From NCBI GenBank assembly GCA_003551705.1, contig PUNJ01000059.1, forward strand, positions 1 through 63,146: a stretch of DNA of 63,146 nt, in the 5' to 3' direction. Shown here piece by piece: positions 1 to 56,670 of the stretch (position 1 is the stretch's first letter; every line of letters begins with the position of its first letter). Origin of the DNA: Chloroflexota bacterium (lineage in GTDB: Bacteria; Chloroflexota; Dehalococcoidia; UBA2247; RBG-13-53-26). The notes beneath the pieces were generated by a model, which saw only the letters and a program-made list of their open reading frames with translations, had not been told where the DNA came from and did no database searches. Position numbers and translations under genes: made by a program.

Positions 1-535
1 CCAGGGCCTACGGGCCATGACTAGTTGACTGCGCAGGTACCAGGGCGCAAAAAAGGTTTACCTTATTGCGACGCGCCTGCAGGCGTGGCCTCCAGGCGTG
101 CATTTGAGCGGATCCTTTTTCCCAGGTCTTCGGCCCCCTTGCAGGCGGGTATAATCGTATAATCGGTCAGGCTCGCCCGTAACCCCCGCTAAAATCGCAT
201 CTGCTGAAGCGGTGGCGGGCATGTTATGAGTCGGATTTGTGCCGGGAGCCCGTGCGTGTAGGCACTCACTCTTTGTGACAGTATCGAGCTTGAGTTCGTT
301 CACTATACATGCAACCAGATTCTTTGATCAAAAGAATTCATCAGAACCACAGCGGCTATTTGTGAAGCCTTGGTAAGTGCTTGAATGTATTACTTAATCT
401 GCGTCCCGTGACCTTGCGGGATTCCGGCCTGAATACCCCCCGGCCTACATTTTCCTTTTGGACTGCATCAACGTCACCCATGAGCCGGGCTAGTTGATAC
501 AGCAGACTACGAAAACCCATGATGTCCCCTCCATG

Positions 536-799
536 TCATAGTGCCGACCATTCAATGCAGGTGTCCTCAATGCGCCGCTGCCGGCAGATGTAGCCAAGCC
601 GGTGCCGGGTCTCTATCCAGTACCGGTTGCCCACCTTGCGCCGTAGCCGCATAATGTAGAAGGGTAGGCTACCCTTCTGCGTGCCCTCAGGCCACACCTC
701 AAGCTCCAGGGCTCTGCGGGGGACTAACTGGCCCTCCCAGACCATCAGATGGTCCAGCAATCGTTGTTCGGTAGGAGTGAGCGTTTTTGGTCTTGGCAT
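536..799 (-). CDS. Stand-alone winged-helix DNA-binding protein (OmpR/PhoB-type Trans_reg_C domain)
   Basis: Translation LTPTEQRLLDHLMVWEGQLVPRRALELEVWPEGTQKGSLPFYIMRLRRKVGNRYWIETRHRLGYIC matches the OmpR-type effector wing pattern; no receiver domain present. Confidence 0.7.
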   Translation of the reverse strand: MPRPKTLTPTEQRLLDHLMVWEGQLVPRRALELEVWPEGTQKGSLPFYIMRLRRKVGNRYWIETRHRLGYICRQRRIEDTCIEWSAL

Positions 800-850
800 G
801 TCCCCCCTATTGCTGGTGTCCCGTCATTGTCTCACGGTATCCGGCCCGGG

Positions 851-1207
851 TCAAAACCTATCGCCCGGCGAAAGCCTCTTGTGGGCGGCCCTGGCCCGTT
901 CACTTGCCGCTGATGCACCATACCGGGCCAGCATGGAACGGCTACGCCACCCGGCAAGCTGCATAAGATCGCCCTCCGTGCCTTCATTCATCAGCCATAG
1001 GTGAGCGAACGTGTGCCTGAATAAGTGAGTATATGCATGGCTGATGCCTGCCTCTTTCGCCCTGTCCTTGACTATCTGATAAATACCAGAGGGTGTCATC
1101 GGCCCAGGTGTACCAAGCCATAAGCTATCACAGGCTGCCCGTGAATGACTGGCCCGCACCCGGAGGTATCTGTCAATGTCCCTGGAGGCCTTCGCACCAA
1201 AAGACAC
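851..1207 (-). pseudogene. Tyrosine recombinase C-terminal catalytic fragment (truncated integrase)
   Basis: [37 protein letters not shown] resembles the H-x-x-R / H(W)-Y active-site region. The same frame runs a little further upstream ([18 protein letters not shown]) and then meets a stop codon, so the N-terminal half is missing. Confidence 0.65.
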
Positions 1208-1710
1208 GACACGGGCCCGGCTGCCCTTGCCCGTGATTTGGAAGGCACGATGTGTGCATCATAGACGGACGCCTGAGCAGATGTCAATATCCTGAGAGCA
1301 TTACTCACCGAACGCGCTACGATTGTGGCAATAGGTGCCTGCTGAGAAGCAAGACCAGACACATACCAGGCGTGCGTACCGCAAAACGTACCGCACCAAC
1401 ACCGAGTGGCAGCAGCACCTTAGTCCCAGGCTGGCTTTAGCACTCAAACAGGTCGGGGCATATATTGAGCTATAAAGACAAGGCTGTCTGGGCGGACCTG
1501 GCCCGCCTGCGGTTGATTCTGCCTGCCAAGGACGGGAAACGGACGTCGGTTATATGGGTCGAATCCAGTCACGGGGTGTGTCGCCGAGTGCTGACACTCC
1601 ACGGCAGCGCGCTCATTGAAAACTCAGGGTGACCTTATGTTTACGCGAAAAACTGTAATGTTATACGTTTTTAATGTTTTGCCAGGCACCAAAGAAAAAG
1701 CCTGTAGGCA

Positions 1711-2014
1711 CCTTACATTACCTTACACAAATTAAGTTATTGTTAATCTCTCAGGCACGATTACCTTACATTACCTTACAAAAACAGGGTCCTACCTTAC
1801 AAAAATCGCTCAGGCGTGGACCGTGCCTGACCTTACAAACATTATCAACCTTACATTACATTACCTTACAAAAAAAAGGGCTAACCTTACAAAAATCGCT
1901 CAGGCGTGGACCGTGCCTGACCTTACCAACCTTACCAAAATTCTACCCAACCTTACCAAAATTGCTCAGGCGTGGACCGTGCCTGACCTTACAAACATTA
2001 TCAACCTTACCAAA
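1711..2014 (+). repeat. Direct-repeat (iteron-like) array: about 14 same-strand CCTTAC motifs plus three near-identical CAGGC-GTGGACCGT-GCCTG palindromes
   Basis: Counted by eye: CCTTAC near 1711, 1721, 1764, 1774, 1795, 1831, 1849, 1864, 1885, 1921, 1930, 1951, 1987, 2004. Palindromes at 1811-1829, 1901-1919, 1967-1985. Confidence 0.9.
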
Positions 2015-2049
2015 AAAACATAAGGGGGTCCCTAGTTTTTGGGTGCGTT

Positions 2050-2391
2050 ATGACAACCCTCGAACATAACATAAAATGTAAAGTGGGGATAGTAGACATA
2101 ATGATGCGGCAACCGATACGGCAACCTGGGGGCGAAATGGGTCAATCAAAGTGCGACATCTGCAGTACTCCCTACGCGCAGCATGCAATCTGCGACGGGT
2201 GCGGCATCCTGGCGGGGCCAGGGCACCTATACAGCCACGTGGTGACCGTCGCCGGGTTGAGGTTGAGTGATAGCTGTGCTGACTGCCGGGATCACCGGCT
2301 CGAACTGGTCGCTGCAGGCGACAAGTACAGCCTGGCGCTGGCCAGGTTAATCAAAGCGGATGAGGGCGGGACGCTGGGCTTCCTGCAGTAA
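2050..2391 (+). CDS. Small Cys-rich (zinc-binding-like) orphan protein of the integrated element
   Basis: KCDICSTPYAQHAICDGCG...DSCADC cysteine-pair spacing; ORF directly downstream of the repeat array. The true start may be internal. Confidence 0.5.
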   Translation: MTTLEHNIKCKVGIVDIMMRQPIRQPGGEMGQSKCDICSTPYAQHAICDGCGILAGPGHLYSHVVTVAGLRLSDSCADCRDHRLELVAAGDKYSLALARLIKADEGGTLGFLQ

Positions 2392-2403
2392 GGAGGGGGG
2401 CAA

Positions 2404-2583
2404 TTGAGTAGCATAACCAACGGGTACCAGGGCGCTGGCCCGGCTGCTGGCCGCATGGAAAGCAGGCCAGCAGGCCGTGCCTTCGCCTCAAAGGTTCGCA
2501 CGCAGGCCGATTGCCTGACCTGCCCGCATTGGCAAGGGCCGTACTCGTTGCTGTATCGCTTGCTGCATTGCATCGCCACCTGA
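2404..2583 (+). CDS. Small orphan ORF with TTG start (about 59 aa, Cys-containing)
   Basis: Strong SD-like 'aaggaggggggcaa' just before TTG; LSSITNGYQGAGPAAGRMESRPAGRAFASKVRTQADCLTCPHWQGPYSLLYRLLHCIAT*. Not in the supplied ORF track. Confidence 0.4.
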   Translation: MSSITNGYQGAGPAAGRMESRPAGRAFASKVRTQADCLTCPHWQGPYSLLYRLLHCIAT

Positions 2584-2622
2584 ACCAGTCCCTCAAATCG
2601 CCGGTCGGGGTCCGGCACCATG

Positions 2623-2880
2623 CTACTCTGTGCCTTCGCCGGCCAGTAGGCGGAGGGTAAGCCGGCGGGAATTCTCGGATGTTACCGTAACCACCCAATC
2701 ACCCTCGCCGACATCCTCCGGCTGGGGCTCACCGGCGAGGAGGACATGAAACCGGGCCGCCGCTTGTGGCCTGGCCATAGCCTCCAGCTTTGCTAATCTA
2801 CGCTCTATGCTGTCCATCGCCACCTCCGTTAATCGCTTCTTCCAGACGGGCAAGTCGTATCTCGAGGCTGGCCGTCTCAC
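2623..2880 (-). CDS. Small orphan protein (MDSIERRLAKLEAM... likely start inside this ORF)
   Basis: Open frame with amphipathic N-terminal helix; lies in a minus-strand run of small element ORFs. Confidence 0.45.
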   Translation of the reverse strand: MRRPASRYDLPVWKKRLTEVAMDSIERRLAKLEAMARPQAAARFHVLLAGEPQPEDVGEGDWVVTVTSENSRRLTLRLLAGEGTE

Positions 2881-3100
2881 AGGCCTTCAGCCCTATACTG
2901 GCCAGGTAGCCCACGGTCCGGGCTCGGATGAATATGTCGCCGGACGTCGAATGTAGCACCTCGTCGATCAGGCAGGCAAGCGTACGCAGAAGCCCGCCCG
3001 CGGTTTCAATCTCTTGGTTTGACACGCGTATAGCCTCCAGCCCGCATCGTTTTGTAGGCTGTCCTGCCCGTCTCATTCGAGCGTACTGGCGACTATACAC
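2798..3100 (-). CDS. Small orphan helical protein
   Basis: SNQEIETAGGLLRTLACLIDEVLHSTSGDIFIRARTVGYLASIGLKACETASLEIRLARLEEAI; coding-like composition in a minus-strand gene run. Confidence 0.45.
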   Translation of the reverse strand: MYSRQYARMRRAGQPTKRCGLEAIRVSNQEIETAGGLLRTLACLIDEVLHSTSGDIFIRARTVGYLASIGLKACETASLEIRLARLEEAINGGGDGQHRA

Positions 3101-3129
3101 CCTAGCTTGCTCGCGGTTCTTAAATGGTA

Positions 3130-3276
3130 TCAGTCAACTTCTAGCTCGCTGGCGATCTCGGCGCGGACTCTGGCAAGCTGGTCCCGTAGCCCCGCAACCT
3201 GCCCGTGGTCGCCGGACTCAAGGGCGCTGACAATCGCCTTTTGCAGTTGTTTGATCTCACTCAGTCTACCTGTCAT
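3130..3276 (-). CDS. Small orphan ORF (48 aa)
   Basis: ATG...TGA frame: MTGRLSEIKQLQKAIVSALESGDHGQVAGLRDQLARVRAEIASELEVD*; coiled-coil-like. Too short for the supplied ORF track. Confidence 0.45.
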   Translation of the reverse strand: MTGRLSEIKQLQKAIVSALESGDHGQVAGLRDQLARVRAEIASELEVD

Positions 3277-3486
3277 TTTTCACCTCTTTCTTTGGGTAGG
3301 GGGTACCGCTGTGGGGAAAGGAGAAGGGTATGGAAACCCCAAGCCCACGGCGTCCGCGGCTCCCTCAATGATGACACGCCCTTTTTGGCTTCGCTGAAGC
3401 TGCAATTATGCGGCTTGCCCCCTCACGTTTGTAGACTAGTACCTTCATTCTGCCTCCCCCGTTTCTCTAGTTACTTCGCCAAATGA

Positions 3487-3855
3487 TTATTGTGCGAGGC
3501 ATATTCCTGCTGTTATGTCTAGTCCCGTGCCTAGCTTCTGTCTCACAGGCTGTATATCGCATGACTTTTCTCGCTTTAGCCGGCCGTTTCGGGTCTTTAG
3601 CCGGAGAATTGCGGCGTCCTTTATGAAGTCCCAACCCAGGCGATTAGCACACCCTTCGTGGAGGGCAATGCCGCCAGTCGCTCCCATCCAGAAAACGAAA
3701 GCTCCGGCGATCGCTTCGCCACAGAAGAAACACTCCTCGGCGTTATGGAGGATGCCCGCCCGTATCAGTCCTTGTGTGTTCGGGTCCTGCTTATTGTGGC
3801 AGCTCATTGCCCCGCCTCCGGATGATGCCAGTCCCGCGTTGTGGTAAACCTGCAA
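3487..3855 (-). CDS. Orphan element protein, possible metal-binding (ECFFCGEA...HEGCANRLGWDF)
   Basis: Overlaps the end of the primase-polymerase gene; CxxC and H/C residues. Confidence 0.5.
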   Translation of the reverse strand: MQVYHNAGLASSGGGAMSCHNKQDPNTQGLIRAGILHNAEECFFCGEAIAGAFVFWMGATGGIALHEGCANRLGWDFIKDAAILRLKTRNGRLKREKSCDIQPVRQKLGTGLDITAGICLAQ

Positions 3856-5576
3856 CCGGCCATAAGTTTGAAGTCCAGCTCCAGGCCATTAGGGTTCTTC
3901 TCCGGATTTACCCAATTCTTACATTTCCGGACGGCCACCTTGCCAGCGTCCATGTTGAGATATAGCCGGGGCTTCTCCAGGCCAAAGCTACCACCTCTCC
4001 CCAAACTCGCTCCCGGATTCTTCTGTAGAGCAATGATGGCAATACCGCCTCTCAGCTTTTCATGTATCTGGCGTATCCATTCACCTACAATGTAGAATTC
4101 ACCGGATACCTCGAGAAAGTCGATAATGTTGACGGCTTCCGGTCGGATCACGTCCGGGAAGTCTGAGCTCCGCTCTTCTGCTGTGAAGGTCCATTCCTCG
4201 AGGCCAGTACCATCGAATAGCTCCAGACGACTGGCTAGCTCGGTTTCCCCCATTTCCGAGGACTGGTAGAAAATCGCAAAGTCCCTCATGTTCTTGTAGA
4301 CGAAATTCAAGAGAAACGCCGTCTTGCCAGCATCGGGCGCGCCCGCGATGACAATGACGTTGCCGGGGTAACACTTAAACATCCGCTCAATGCCAAAAGG
4401 CCAGCGGAGGTCCAGGGGCGTCCGGCTGCCCGCTCGCTTAAAATCAATCGGCCTGACTGCTGTATCGACGTGGCGAAAAAGGCGACTATCCTTGGGATGC
4501 TGTTCGATCTCGCCGGCTACACGGAGGCGTGACATGATCAGGCGTCGGTTTGATTTCTCGCTGTCCGACCGGATGCCAAGTTCGCGATCCATGTCGACGT
4601 AGGAGAACCAGCCCTTTTGGTCCCTGGTCCACTCGCTCACTCGCTTAATGAGCGGAGGTGCTTTTGTTGCGCTCTTCTCCGAAGATGCCGCTTTTTTTGC
4701 GCTTTCTGTTGCGCTTTTGTTGCGCTCTGTGTCAAAGCTGGCATCTGGAGGACTATTATTATCGCGCGTATATAACCATTGGTCCCACGCCTGCTCCACA
4801 CCTGGCAGCGCAACATTTCCGCAACAGAAAGCTGTTGCGTCAGGCGTATATCGTGACCCACTGGCCGCAACCTTCCGGACTTCATCCTCTGTAAGTGGAG
4901 GTCGGCATTGCTGGCGGTTGGTTTCAAGCAATGCGGCTTCAATCGCTGCTTGCGTCATACCGCGCTTCCGCATGGTGCCGGCCAAACTGAGCAAAGTATG
5001 GTTTCGCCGGGTCTCTGGTATCAGCCCCCCCACCGGCTCCGCTGCCTCCGCCGTAGCCTTCGGTTTCGCCTTGAGTGCCTCCGCCGCTGCTAGCGGTAGC
5101 TGGTCCCAGGCGTAGAGATTGTCAGGTGTCGGCATGATCTCCAGGACGTAGGCCCCCGGCCCGTTCGAGCCCACCACATTCACGAAACCGCCGTTGCCCC
5201 GACTGTCCACACCTGGCAGCAAACCGGCGACTGTCTTAACGGGGAAGCCCGGACTGGCGAAGTAGAAGTGAGACCCGCCCCGCGGGGTCCTGACGTGTGG
5301 CTTGAGGCCAGCAGCCTCGAACAGCTTCGCCGCCTCCGCGGTGTCGCAGTCAAAGACAACGACTTTGCCAGTCACGATGCCCCATAGTTTGGGCCGCAAG
5401 CTGTCTTGCCAAGTATGAAGCTCGGTATCGGTCGGTTGCTGGTCCTGATACCGCGCCCAAGGCACACGTGGCGCTTTGCCGGTATCGCCGCCCCCGGAGG
5501 GAATGAGGCTATATCCCAGCGTGTGTAGCTTCCAAACAACGGGGTAGATATCAACCGCGGCAGTCATCGTCCGCAC
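3804..5576 (-). CDS. Bifunctional DNA primase/polymerase (prim-pol) with C-terminal AAA/RecA-like ATPase; element replication protein
   Basis: N-term LHTLGYSLIPSGGG..GKAPRVPWARYQ...VVFDCDT...RTPRGGSHFYF (prim-pol motifs), PriCT-like helical middle, C-term PGNVIVIAGAPDAGKTAFLLNF (Walker A). Confidence 0.88.
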   Translation of the reverse strand: MRTMTAAVDIYPVVWKLHTLGYSLIPSGGGDTGKAPRVPWARYQDQQPTDTELHTWQDSLRPKLWGIVTGKVVVFDCDTAEAAKLFEAAGLKPHVRTPRGGSHFYFASPGFPVKTVAGLLPGVDSRGNGGFVNVVGSNGPGAYVLEIMPTPDNLYAWDQLPLAAAEALKAKPKATAEAAEPVGGLIPETRRNHTLLSLAGTMRKRGMTQAAIEAALLETNRQQCRPPLTEDEVRKVAASGSRYTPDATAFCCGNVALPGVEQAWDQWLYTRDNNSPPDASFDTERNKSATESAKKAASSEKSATKAPPLIKRVSEWTRDQKGWFSYVDMDRELGIRSDSEKSNRRLIMSRLRVAGEIEQHPKDSRLFRHVDTAVRPIDFKRAGSRTPLDLRWPFGIERMFKCYPGNVIVIAGAPDAGKTAFLLNFVYKNMRDFAIFYQSSEMGETELASRLELFDGTGLEEWTFTAEERSSDFPDVIRPEAVNIIDFLEVSGEFYIVGEWIRQIHEKLRGGIAIIALQKNPGASLGRGGSFGLEKPRLYLNMDAGKVAVRKCKNWVNPEKNPNGLELDFKLMAGCRFTTTRDWHHPEAGQ

Positions 5577-5746
5577 CTGTCCAAATACTCCTCGAGTGCC
5601 CGCCGGGGGATGATGACACGCCTATCTGAAATGCGAATTGCGGGAATGCGGCCTTGAGCGATCAGATTGCGTAGCGTTCGCTCACATAGCCCGAGCTCAA
5701 GCGCAGCTTCTTTCACACTCAGAGTTAAGCGCTCATCTGCTGGCAT
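5564..5746 (-). CDS. Excisionase/MerR-type helix-turn-helix protein
   Basis: MPADERLTLSVKEAALELGLCERTLRNLIAQGRIPAIRISDRRVIIPRRALEEYLDRCGR. Confidence 0.82.
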   Translation of the reverse strand: MPADERLTLSVKEAALELGLCERTLRNLIAQGRIPAIRISDRRVIIPRRALEEYLDRCGR

Positions 5747-5948
5747 CGGGAACGCCTTCCGGCCAGAGTTGGCGTTCTGCGACGCCCAGGGCAGCAGCGA
5801 GCCGCCCTCGGACGCTGGGCCCTGGGTAAGCATTGTAGCGCTCAATCTGGACGATCCGAGCTGTCGAGACGCCCGTCGTTGCGGACAGCTCCAGTATCGA
5901 CCAGCCTTGAGTTTTGCGAATCTCTTTCAGCCGATTCATCTTCTCCAC
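5733..5948 (-). CDS. XRE-family HTH transcriptional regulator
   Basis: MEKMNRLKEIRKTQGWSILELSATTGVSTARIVQIERYNAYPGPSVRGRLAAALGVAERQLW. Confidence 0.85.
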   Translation of the reverse strand: MEKMNRLKEIRKTQGWSILELSATTGVSTARIVQIERYNAYPGPSVRGRLAAALGVAERQLWPEGVPDASR

Positions 5949-5953
5949 CTTGA

Positions 5954-5987
5954 CAGGTAGCGATCAATTATTATATTATTATACCTG
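5954..5987. promoter_or_regulatory. Candidate operator/promoter region between the XRE gene and the rightward genes
   Basis: Inverted repeat CAGGTA (5954-5959) / TACCTG (5982-5987) flanking an AT-rich core, next to a TTGACA-like box on the minus strand. Confidence 0.4.
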
Positions 5988-6027
5988 AACATGGTTGTCA
6001 ACTGCTACGGCTTACGGAGGACGTGAA

Positions 6028-6132
6028 ATGAAGTATTATTATAACATACACAACAAAAACGACAAAAGAGCGAGTATAGCGTTACGCCTTAGCGTTAATG
6101 CACGGCGGGTATTATGTGGAAAGTCGAATTAG
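6028..6132 (+). CDS. Putative 34-aa leader ORF overlapping the start of the next gene
   Basis: Strong SD 'cggaggacgtgaa' before ATG; MKYYYNIHNKNDKRASIALRLSVNARRVLCGKSN*; its stop lies 19 nt inside the 6114 ORF. Confidence 0.45.
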   Translation: MKYYYNIHNKNDKRASIALRLSVNARRVLCGKSN

Positions 6133-6956
6133 GTGTAGCCAGATATAGGACCCTGAAGCTGAGGGAGGGCATTCTTGTGCCTGAAGGCCGGCTAGAGGGC
6201 ATACTCTGGCCCTTCAGAAACCCTACTTTGCCCACAGACTTCTATAATGTGAGGGACGCCAAGACAGCTATTGAATTCTGCCGTGAATACGCCCCCCTGG
6301 GCTATGACTGTCTTACCGCTGACAAGGTGGGTGGCGACCCGCTCGAATGGGTGCTAACTCATGCAGGCAATGTCAGGTTTGTCCTCGACATGGTTTACGC
6401 TTTGGGACAGCATGACGCTAGCAGTCTCTACGACCTGGTAAGGGACAATGCTCTGGAAGTCCACTTGACAGACACAGCAGGTCAGCCGGTCGGCTCTCCC
6501 ATCACGGGGCTCTTCCGTACACCACATCTTTTGAAGTATGCCGCCGGTTGTGACTATCGCGAATTGATTCTATGGTTACCCGCTCAGGAGCAGGACATCT
6601 TGGATATCGTCCCAGGCTTGGTGACAGATATTGTGAATGACAACACACAGAACATGGGGCAAGAGTTATGGAGCGATGTCCGAACTGATGGCACCCAATT
6701 CCTATGGGTGCATAAGTTTCGGTCGCTTCTCGAGGCTATATGGTCTATGGTCGGAGATTTGGCCGTCAAAGGTGTGGCCAACCCTTCGCGGCTTCGCCGC
6801 TGTGAATGGTGTGGGGCCATTTTCGAGGTTACTGACAAGAGACAGAAATTCTGCCCGCCGGTGGAATCACCCTTCGTCAGCAGGCAACAATCCCCCTGTG
6901 GACTGAGTTATCGCCAAAAGAAGCTAAGAGATAAGGCAAGCGGAGGCACATCATGA
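6114..6956 (+). CDS. Element protein with C-terminal zinc-finger-like motif (CEWCGAIFEVTDKRQKFCPP...CG), translationally coupled to the integrase
   Basis: 280-aa ORF, 4-nt overlap with the integrase start, C-terminal CxxC...C...C cluster. Confidence 0.75.
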   Translation: MWKVELGVARYRTLKLREGILVPEGRLEGILWPFRNPTLPTDFYNVRDAKTAIEFCREYAPLGYDCLTADKVGGDPLEWVLTHAGNVRFVLDMVYALGQHDASSLYDLVRDNALEVHLTDTAGQPVGSPITGLFRTPHLLKYAAGCDYRELILWLPAQEQDILDIVPGLVTDIVNDNTQNMGQELWSDVRTDGTQFLWVHKFRSLLEAIWSMVGDLAVKGVANPSRLRRCEWCGAIFEVTDKRQKFCPPVESPFVSRQQSPCGLSYRQKKLRDKASGGTS

Positions 6957-8152
6957 GAGGCAGCATAAAGCAACGCTCAAAGGGAACCTGGACAATCACA
7001 ATCGTCACGGGGAAGGACGCCGCTGGGAAGCGTATCAGGCATTACGAGACTGTCACGGGCAGCAAGGACCGGGCCGATACCCGCCTAGCCGAGCTCATAG
7101 TGGAGCTTTCCAAAGGCACCTACGTCAAGACCCCACGGGCCTTGACCGTGGGCGAATACCTGAGCCAATGGATGGCCAGCCAGTCCACGAGGTGCCGCCC
7201 AAAAACTATGGAATGGTATGGGAACATTGTCAAGAACCGGCTATCTCCTGAGCTAGGGCATATTCCATTGTCACAGTTAAGGCCTTCTCACGTGGCGCAG
7301 TACTTCGCCAAGTTAAGAGACAAGGGCGCGACTTTGACCCTGGCCGCCGGCGATTATAGAACGCTGAGGAAGGCCCTGCGTGATGCCGTAAAGCTCGGGA
7401 TCGTGGGCATTAACGCTTGTGCGGGCGTTTCACCCCCGAAGCCCCAGGACCAGGATATGCAGGTATTGAACCCCGCCGACCTGGGAAGATTCTTGGCTGC
7501 CGTTGAGCAAGCCCCTTTCCCGTACGGTGCCTTGTATCGTACCATGCTTTATACTGGCCTCCGGCGAAATGAAACCCTGGCCCTGACCTGGGGCAATTTG
7601 GACCTTGAACTATGCACGCTTCGGGTGGTCAACGCCCAATGCCACGTGAACCGGGTATTCACCTTGCTGCCGCCCAAGACACGGGCAGGCCGCCGCGCTG
7701 TAGACTTGCCGCCATCCCTGGCCGTATACCTCCGGGAATACCGGGCGAAGGTGGAGGGCCAGAGGGCTATGATAGGCAAGCCATTAACCGATAGCGATTT
7801 TGTATTTGCCCAGGTGGACGGCAGCCCCCTCTTGCCGGGGACGGCCAGCCAGACCTTCCGAAAGATCATTCGTAAGACCGGCCTCAATATCAGGCTTCAC
7901 GATCTCCGGCATACCTACGCCTCAGTAATGATAGCCGCCGGCGTGAACGTACGGACCTTAAGTCAGTCTTTGGGCCATGCCCAGGTTAGCACCACGCTTA
8001 ATGTCTACTCGCACATGTTCCCTGGGGCTGGTAAGACAGCCGCCGCCGACTTTGACCGGGTGGTCAGTCCTTGGGTGGAAAATGCCGACAATTGCCGACA
8101 AGAAGAGGACTCTGGAGAATTCTGCCGACAAAATGCCGACAACCCGTTTTGA
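6953..8152 (+). CDS. int: Phage-type tyrosine recombinase (integrase)
   Basis: SAM-like N-terminal domain (VGEYLSQWMASQSTRCRPKTMEWYGNIVKNRL) and catalytic TGLRRNE...HDLRHTYASVMIAAGVNVRTLSQSLGHAQVSTTLNVYSHM. Confidence 0.95.
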   Translation: MRGSIKQRSKGTWTITIVTGKDAAGKRIRHYETVTGSKDRADTRLAELIVELSKGTYVKTPRALTVGEYLSQWMASQSTRCRPKTMEWYGNIVKNRLSPELGHIPLSQLRPSHVAQYFAKLRDKGATLTLAAGDYRTLRKALRDAVKLGIVGINACAGVSPPKPQDQDMQVLNPADLGRFLAAVEQAPFPYGALYRTMLYTGLRRNETLALTWGNLDLELCTLRVVNAQCHVNRVFTLLPPKTRAGRRAVDLPPSLAVYLREYRAKVEGQRAMIGKPLTDSDFVFAQVDGSPLLPGTASQTFRKIIRKTGLNIRLHDLRHTYASVMIAAGVNVRTLSQSLGHAQVSTTLNVYSHMFPGAGKTAAADFDRVVSPWVENADNCRQEEDSGEFCRQNADNPF

Positions 8153-8160
8153 TTTAGGCG

Positions 8161-8232
8161 TGAGCCGGGTGGGATTCGAACCCACGACGCCCTGATTAAA
8201 AGTCAGGTGCTCTACCACTGAGCTACCGGCCC
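8161..8232 (-). tRNA. tRNA-Lys (anticodon UUU), likely attachment site of the element
   Basis: Reverse complement GGGCCGGTAGCTCAGTGGTAGAGCACCTGACTTTTAATCAGGGCGTCGTGGGTTCGAATCCCACCCGGCTCA folds as a cloverleaf; anticodon loop CTTTTAA. No encoded CCA. Confidence 0.93.
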
Positions 8233-44994: not shown

Positions 44995-46434
44995 ATGGCA
45001 GCCGCTATTCCACTGTATAAGCCCCTGGTTACTGATGAGGTTGAACAGATCGATCAGGGGGCGCGCTACATACTGGAGCACGTAGGAATCAATGTTTTGG
45101 ACAATGCCTGTCTGGACATGCTGGGCGAGGCTGGAGCCGAGGTAGATCGCCCGAACCAGATGGTCAAATTCAGGCCTGACTGGCTGGACTCGGCATTGGC
45201 TCAGGCACCATCTAGCTTCGTATTGCATTCAAGGGATGGATATAACGATATCCACCTGGGTGAAGGCAAGGTGCACTTCACAAATGGGGGCAGGGTCTTC
45301 CATTTCAGGGACGGCCGGACGGGACAGTACCGGTATACCATGCTGAGACACGTGGCCCGAACTGCTGCCCTGGTGCAAAATCTGGACTATATCAGGTTCT
45401 ACATGATTGCCTGCCAGGCTCACACCGTCAAGAGGGAGGTATATCATCTGAACGACTTCTTTCACTCCTTCAACAACACTACAAAGCATGTAATGGGGGG
45501 GTGTGACAATCTGGAGGGCGCCAGGCAGGTATGGGAGCTTGCTGGCTTCATTGCCGGAGGTGAAGAGCAGCTACGCCGGAAGCCGTTCCTTTCGATTGTT
45601 GTAAATCCCATTAGCCCGCTCACCATGGAGTCCAACATGCTGAATGTATTGCGGTTCTGCTGCACGCATGGCATCCCGGTAGCTTGTGACCCGTCGCCCA
45701 TGGCCGGAGCTACATCACCGGTTACCCTTGCTGGGACTCTTGCACAGATGCATGCTGAAGCTCTGGCCTGTGCGGCCATAAGCCAGGTTTTTTCTCCCGG
45801 CGCCAAGGTCCTCTATGGTGCGGTTCCTACAGTAATGGACATGCGCAAGATGGATGTCACCATGGGCTCGATTGAAATGGCAATGATGAATGCGGCGGCG
45901 GTGCAGCTGGCCGGGTTGTACAAACTACCCATATTTGGGACCGCCGGGGTGACCGAATCCAAGATATCAGACGTTCAAACGGGATCTGAGAAGAGCATGT
46001 CCAGTCTACTGGTTGCCATGGCGGGGGCTGATTGTATCCATCTGGCGGCTGGCATGCTGGACTCAGCGAACTCAATTTCGTATGCTCAGTATGTGATTGA
46101 TAACGAAATTATCGGCACGATTCACAGAGTGCTTTCTGGAATCCGGGTGGACCAGGGGACCTTGGCTCTGGATGTAATTGGCGAAGTGGGGGCGGGTGGC
46201 AACTATGTCATGCATGATCACACCATCGAATACATGATGGATGAGTTTTTCTATCCACAACTCGCTGTGCGCTCCAGTTACGATGTCTGGGAGGAACAAG
46301 GCCGCCCTGATATGCTGAGTCGCTCGAAGGAAGTTGTGCAAAGGGTTCTGGCAAAGAGTAAAGGCGGTGTCCTGGGACCGGATCTGGTGTCCAGGATACG
46401 GAAGACTTTTCCTGGTATACAGAATGCGCAATGA
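44995..46434 (+). CDS. MttB-family (non-pyrrolysine) corrinoid methyltransferase, second paralogue
   Basis: FRPDWLDSALAQAPSSFVLHSRDG; MAGATSPVTLAGTLAQMHAEALACAAISQVFSPGAKVLYG; no internal TAG. Confidence 0.9.
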   Translation: MAAAIPLYKPLVTDEVEQIDQGARYILEHVGINVLDNACLDMLGEAGAEVDRPNQMVKFRPDWLDSALAQAPSSFVLHSRDGYNDIHLGEGKVHFTNGGRVFHFRDGRTGQYRYTMLRHVARTAALVQNLDYIRFYMIACQAHTVKREVYHLNDFFHSFNNTTKHVMGGCDNLEGARQVWELAGFIAGGEEQLRRKPFLSIVVNPISPLTMESNMLNVLRFCCTHGIPVACDPSPMAGATSPVTLAGTLAQMHAEALACAAISQVFSPGAKVLYGAVPTVMDMRKMDVTMGSIEMAMMNAAAVQLAGLYKLPIFGTAGVTESKISDVQTGSEKSMSSLLVAMAGADCIHLAAGMLDSANSISYAQYVIDNEIIGTIHRVLSGIRVDQGTLALDVIGEVGAGGNYVMHDHTIEYMMDEFFYPQLAVRSSYDVWEEQGRPDMLSRSKEVVQRVLAKSKGGVLGPDLVSRIRKTFPGIQNAQ

Positions 46435-56117: not shown

Positions 56118-56389
56118 TTCGTCCTGTTGCCATAATGGAGGCTCACGGGCGATCCCATGGTACCTCTGAAGTTGGGGTTTTCCCTTGTTCCAATTTGGTA
56201 CGCCCACGATTGTGGGCACAGAGTGGTTCGAGTTATCCTATTCAAGCCATTTCCACCCGCATGAAGCGGGACAGGGAGGAGGTTGGGACCTCCTCCCTGT
56301 ATTCATGTATGCCGGTCATGCATCAGCCTTTGGAGTGGAAGTCCTTCATAGTCCAGGGAACGGAATTATTTCGCAGAGACAAGGGCGTC

Positions 56390-56670
56390 AGTGTGAGGTG
56401 AGTTCTGAAAGAAGTCCGAGCGAGAACCACGCCCCGAACAACAGAAACCGGATAGTAGGTCATGATCGGTGGGTGAGCGGGCATGAGGCGGTGAAACCCG
56501 TGATTCCCAAGACTGGCTGGTGGTAAATCCGGCGGGGACGGGGTGAAAAGGCGGGCGCTTATGCCGAGAGGTCTACGGCCCTGTCTAAGAGACTGCCGGC
56601 CTGAAAACAGCTGGGAAAAGGCGGTGGAAGTCAGTAGAGGCCGGTGAAGACCCCGCCTCCCCGATTCTTC
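56390..56670 (+). mobile_element. Group II intron 5'-ribozyme remnant (no RT ORF)
   Basis: 'gccgagaggtctacggccctgtcta ... gaaaacagctggg ... ggtggaagtcagtagaggcc' resembles the conserved stretch preceding the RT ORF in many bacterial group II introns; sequence then changes to unrelated material. Confidence 0.6.

Follow-up and report, generated by a model that had tools for sequence, protein, structure and literature searches.

Near one end of a 63,146-nucleotide stretch of Dehalococcoidia DNA, here called the window, short direct repeats are packed densely into a virus-like element, raising the question of whether they mark the site at which this element starts to replicate and, if so, which protein acts on them. 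An earlier note on this DNA had proposed an iteron origin paired with the prim-pol replicase encoded nearby. Here, we find the origin type reasonably probable from comparison with phages, whereas the pairing with this particular prim-pol is weakened.

Counting of the repeats gave exactly 14 CCTTAC hexamers at 1710-2010, starting at 1711, 1721, 1764, 1774, 1795, 1831, 1849, 1864, 1885, 1921, 1930, 1951, 1987, and 2005, all on the + strand and none as GTAAGG. Each copy is preceded by A and followed by A (10 copies) or C (4 copies), giving iteron-like units of the form ACCTTAC(A/C) (ACCTTACA, ACCTTACAAA). This agrees with the earlier count of about 14 same-orientation CCTTAC(A/C) hexamers in about 300 bp. 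The three palindromes noted before are also present, and they are identical and 21 bp long (TCAGGCGTGGACCGTGCCTGA, pattern TCAGGC-N9-GCCTGA, without strand; 1810-1830, 1900-1920, and 1966-1986), sitting within repeated modules at spacings of 90 and 66 bp. In 2,000 dinucleotide shuffles of 1691-2020, CCTTAC occurred 0.34 times on average and at most three times, versus 14 observed, and the best count of any hexamer was five. The array thus contains several short direct repeats of the same sequence beyond chance, one of the features by which an iteron origin is recognized.

A second such feature, easily melted A+T-rich DNA beside and within the repeats, was likewise found, and the AT-rich character described earlier was upheld. 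The GC content of 1701-2014 is 42%, versus 55% for the whole window, and A+T-rich stretches are located both between and within the repeats. Nearest-neighbour stability over the element part (1-8160) ranks 1829-1878 as the least stable 50-bp stretch and places 1729-1778 and 1631-1680 among the five least stable as well; together they delimit a candidate unwinding region at 1631-1878 (no strand). The long DNA fold of the array region is unremarkable (z -1.7), and the Rfam search gave no RNA family match at the array. Elsewhere in the window, Rfam matched a pyrrolysine insertion element (PYLIS_3, mttB) at 45949-46048, just above the gathering score, and a group II intron domain at 56387-56556. 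No comparable array was detected in the own genome, nine family genomes, and 392 other genomes of the class, and no DnaA box-like site was found at the array region, both of which count against an origin. The palindrome is absent from IMG/VR. Two other explanations of the repeats were rejected: a MITE or copied array, given that the 24-nt inverted repeat on its flanks (75%) scarcely departs from chance level and no other genomic copy was found, and coding repeats, since the open frames spanning the array have no convincing Pfam match.

The array region belongs to a virus-like element integrated at tRNA-Lys. The tRNA-Lys gene (8160-8232) is abutted by a tyrosine integrase gene (6953-8152, + strand; Pfam Phage_integrase), and 45 bp of its 3' half form the att site (8159-8203, no strand), which is repeated at 532-576 of contig C37, adjoining a P-type ATPase gene. 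Part of the element is missing, because window position 1 is a contig end. Genes for an XRE/Cro-type regulator (5733-5948; Pfam HTH_3), an excisionase-type HTH protein (5564-5845; Pfam HTH_17, TIGR01764), and the prim-pol replicase (3804-5576, 590 amino acids; Pfam, PHROGs, and structure model) form one leftward series on the - strand. The replicase carries Prim-Pol, PriCT-1, and RecA/DnaB-like domains according to Pfam and is the only replicase in the visible part of the element. Its gene ends at 3804, 1.8 kb from the array as stated before, with several small open reading frames in between; this lack of adjacency counts against the origin reading.

Two lines of evidence carry the interpretation of the array as an origin: the repeats exceed chance by far and occupy the least stable DNA within the element part of the window, and CCTTACA arrays adjoin or lie in replicase genes of unrelated phages. 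An IMG/VR scan for three tightly spaced CCTTACA, with one motif of reversed core as control, yielded 113 loci versus 55 for the control. Arrays were non-coding in 75/113 and 13/55 cases, respectively (Fisher 2e-7). A replicase homolog was encoded within 300 bp at 33 of the 113 CCTTACA loci, as compared to 1 of the 55 control loci (Fisher 8e-6), a contrast that is biased because the replicase queries were partly chosen from the CCTTACA loci themselves. In the non-coding subset alone, the association was not significant (23/75 versus 1/13, p=0.10), and with the queries used, 50 of these 75 arrays had no replicase homolog within 1 kb, both counting against an origin. Where a non-coding array did have a replicase homolog within 1 kb, it was at the 3' side in 21/25 cases. 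The replicase-adjacent arrays represent about 13 independent groups, and their Pfam-checked neighbours include DnaG-type, Toprim/AAA_25, Prim-Pol/DUF5906, VapE-like, DUF927, and Pox_D5 proteins. Neighbours of the control arrays are mostly non-replicases by Pfam, with two possible exceptions (L356, L317). Literature searches on TGTAAGG and CCTTACA yielded no description of such a phage iteron.

CCTTACA is absent from named Pseudomonas phages that have a related Prim-Pol/D5 gene; in the corresponding place, TGTGTTGGGT / ACCCAACACA repeat sets flank an A+T-rich stretch, a layout resembling that published for PICI (PMC6092414). In Turba (L362), Lodos (L364), and vB_PstS-pAN (L368), these sets are located directly 3' of the Prim-Pol gene and are likely to be unannotated origins. 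Repeats of other kinds were also seen in the phage contigs. Largely non-coding ACCNN pentamer arrays occur at L069:2348-2662, L160:9119-9392, and L076:6250-6539, with genes on the same contigs for similar-looking proteins of about 195 amino acids that have no Pfam match. In L388, 18 GACCGAA are crowded into about 210 bp, upstream of a helicase homolog at a distance of about 2.5 kb.

The prim-pol gene itself contains repeats of a different sequence. The AlphaFold model of its product predicts a winged helix at amino acids 309-369 (4470-4652, - strand; pLDDT about 80; recognition helix SNRRLIMSRL), preceded by a disordered linker at amino acids 246-305. The DNA encoding this linker (4665-4839, - strand) holds four CGCAACA plus inverted copies (GCGCAACA, GCGCAACAAA), not CCTTACA. 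Relatives of this prim-pol come from Dehalococcoidia and other Chloroflexi MAGs, and single-sequence searches gave no match in IMG/VR or GTDB contigs. One relative (L024) is followed by a large terminase gene and is therefore probably part of a prophage. An intein-like insertion is located at the Walker A motif of another prim-pol/helicase homolog (L056:9938-12619), and ten GCTTCG repeats lie at a prim-pol gene end in a further MAG of the same class (L025:4213-4347).

Most relatives have no external array, an outcome that in part bears out the refutation anticipated by the earlier note, and many have repeats inside the gene, namely same-orientation 6- to 8-mers clustered between the primase and helicase parts. 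For 9/11 genes, synonymous codon shuffles matched the observed intragenic cluster in no more than 7/200 trials. Most of the family repeats fit N4-ACA: CGCAACA (window), CGTTACA, CGTGACA, CGGGACA, CGTAACA (other-strand reading), GTCTACA, GACCACA, and CCTTACA; in a few relatives, the repeats deviate from this form (CCTTAAA, TCAGCA, TCAAGC). Repeats within an initiator gene that appear selected as DNA, as in the lambda O gene, are thus a property of the prim-pol gene and not of the array, and the linker cluster is a candidate for a second, intragenic origin beside it.

Iteron sequence appears to co-vary with the winged-helix recognition helix in this family. Among 22 genes compared, one column of this helix holds R or K in 7/7 genes with a CG-type motif, the window gene included, versus 1/15 others, where the p value of 5e-5 is uncorrected for kinship and only descriptive, because motif strand and class were assigned by eye after the column had been noticed. 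In the two CCTTACA genes, the residues at this column are Y and H. L053 and L055, with nearly the same helicase sequence, differ in both recognition helix and iteron. By inference, the window prim-pol would read its own GCGCAACA, leaving the CCTTAC array as a possible target of a different initiator. The element thus encodes a winged-helix replicase, yet one whose motif class (CG) differs from that of the array, which counts against the origin reading as first conceived.

Among the alternatives, the best surviving one, to which we give a modest chance, is that the working origin consists of the prim-pol linker iterons, the CCTTAC array being a relic or the target of another phage's initiator in the manner of a satellite or decoy. 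The conserved position of the cluster agrees with it: the intragenic cluster is the best at the locus in 12/18 full-length viral relatives, with 3.4 expected (p about 1e-5). So do the placement of the repeats in more than one reading frame, their coincidence with the linker that is disordered in the model, and the C-terminal remnant of a second tyrosine recombinase in the left part of the element (851-1207, - strand). However, an array of 14 intact, identical hexamers does not give the impression of decay, and the window cluster is small, its four CGCAACA being reached by 3/200 synonymous shuffles.

It appears doubtful that the neighbouring prim-pol/helicase is the protein that binds the CCTTAC array and initiates replication there, although no other replicase is encoded in the visible part of the element. 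Relatives lend the idea some substance. L300 has CCTTACA at the intragenic iteron positions of the family. L379 and L283 both belong to a single 36.5-kb phage contig, on which the prim-pol homolog gene contains four intragenic CCTTAC, with an intergenic array of four more about 6.3 kb away. CCTTACA therefore occurs as an intragenic iteron in the prim-pol family, and an element can have a separate array in addition to the intragenic one. In L052, the linker and the start of the prim-pol gene share one motif. These cases are opposed by the window gene's own iterons and by its recognition helix of the CG-motif class, the very observations that undercut the pairing proposed before. Use of the array by this protein is possible but less likely than the earlier note assumed. 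Because the prim-pol gene has different intragenic iterons, it is no less likely that the initiator is a second protein, encoded past the contig end or by another phage.

It is tempting to speculate further that CCTTACA (TGTAAGG) might be an iteron common to unrelated phage primase/helicase families, that a few winged-helix residues might set the iteron in the prim-pol family, and that the element might have two origins differing in specificity, an intragenic one of its own plus an orphan array used by another phage's initiator (satellite or decoy). As a complete scheme, this seems rather unlikely to hold. The likelihoods that we attach to the competing readings overlap, because several of them also take the array as origin-type.

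OmpR-type domains bind tandem direct half-sites. A stand-alone OmpR-type winged HTH protein (536-799, - strand; Pfam Trans_reg_C), encoded 0.9 kb from the array, is a possible alternative binder, and the array could be a transcription operator controlling the old integrase gene or the small zinc-ribbon-like open reading frame downstream (2137-2391, + strand; no match in IMG/VR in a single-sequence search). A promoter-like site just right of the array at 2050-2077 is weak evidence for such a role. We regard an operator as improbable, since 14 units far exceed the usual number in such operators and the replicase-near CCTTACA arrays are mostly at the gene 3' end, a poor place for one. A partition (centromere) or packaging site is very unlikely: such sites can consist of direct-repeat arrays, and in L203 and its relatives CCTTACA arrays lie about 110 bp from the small-terminase gene, but the visible element yielded no gene for ParA, ParM, ParR, or a terminase.

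Returning to the iteron-type origin, we envisage that several copies of a winged-helix primase/helicase initiator would bind the ACCTTAC(A/C) units side by side, melt the A+T-rich stretches in and next to it, and load helicase and primase, while the palindromes might be sites for a second factor or form hairpins. We infer protein binding, melting, and replication at the array. Known systems offer partial parallels. In SaPI, SCC, and PICI, the origin is an iteron array that immediately follows the initiator helicase gene on its 3' side (PMC7581432, PMC6092414); two iteron sets surround an A+T-rich stretch in PICI, and the SCC Cch2 origin mixes direct and inverted repeats (PMC6092414, PMC7581432). 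Short iterons and a primase/helicase gene in an integrated element are shared with these islands. In contrast, the window array is not directly 3' of the replicase gene but 1.8 kb away, with small open reading frames between, and has a single orientation, and the window replicase combines Prim-Pol with a RecA/DnaB-like helicase and an internal winged helix. The lambda origin has initiator-binding iterons within the gene O coding sequence (PMC7466680), a layout shared by the intragenic clusters of the prim-pol family, whereas the CCTTAC array lies between genes, a different protein family is involved, and the repeats are about 7 bp. The NrS-1 phage prim-pol recognizes a short template sequence, TTTGGTTA (PMC8718748), but there the primase reads a single-stranded template, while a duplex-binding winged helix is predicted here. 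In the prim-pol replicon pRN1, the origin closely follows the replicase gene on its downstream side (PMC4234260) and has one large stem-loop and no iterons.

Origins of prim-pol-initiated phage and satellite replicons are little mapped, and our searches found no reported origin for Dehalococcoidia elements of this kind. Repeat clusters inside or 3' of replicase genes offer a route to origins in viral metagenomes, and the comparison within the prim-pol family connects a recognition helix with its 7-bp iteron in a simple and testable way. An array such as the one described here should not be assigned to the nearest replicase before this specificity is checked.
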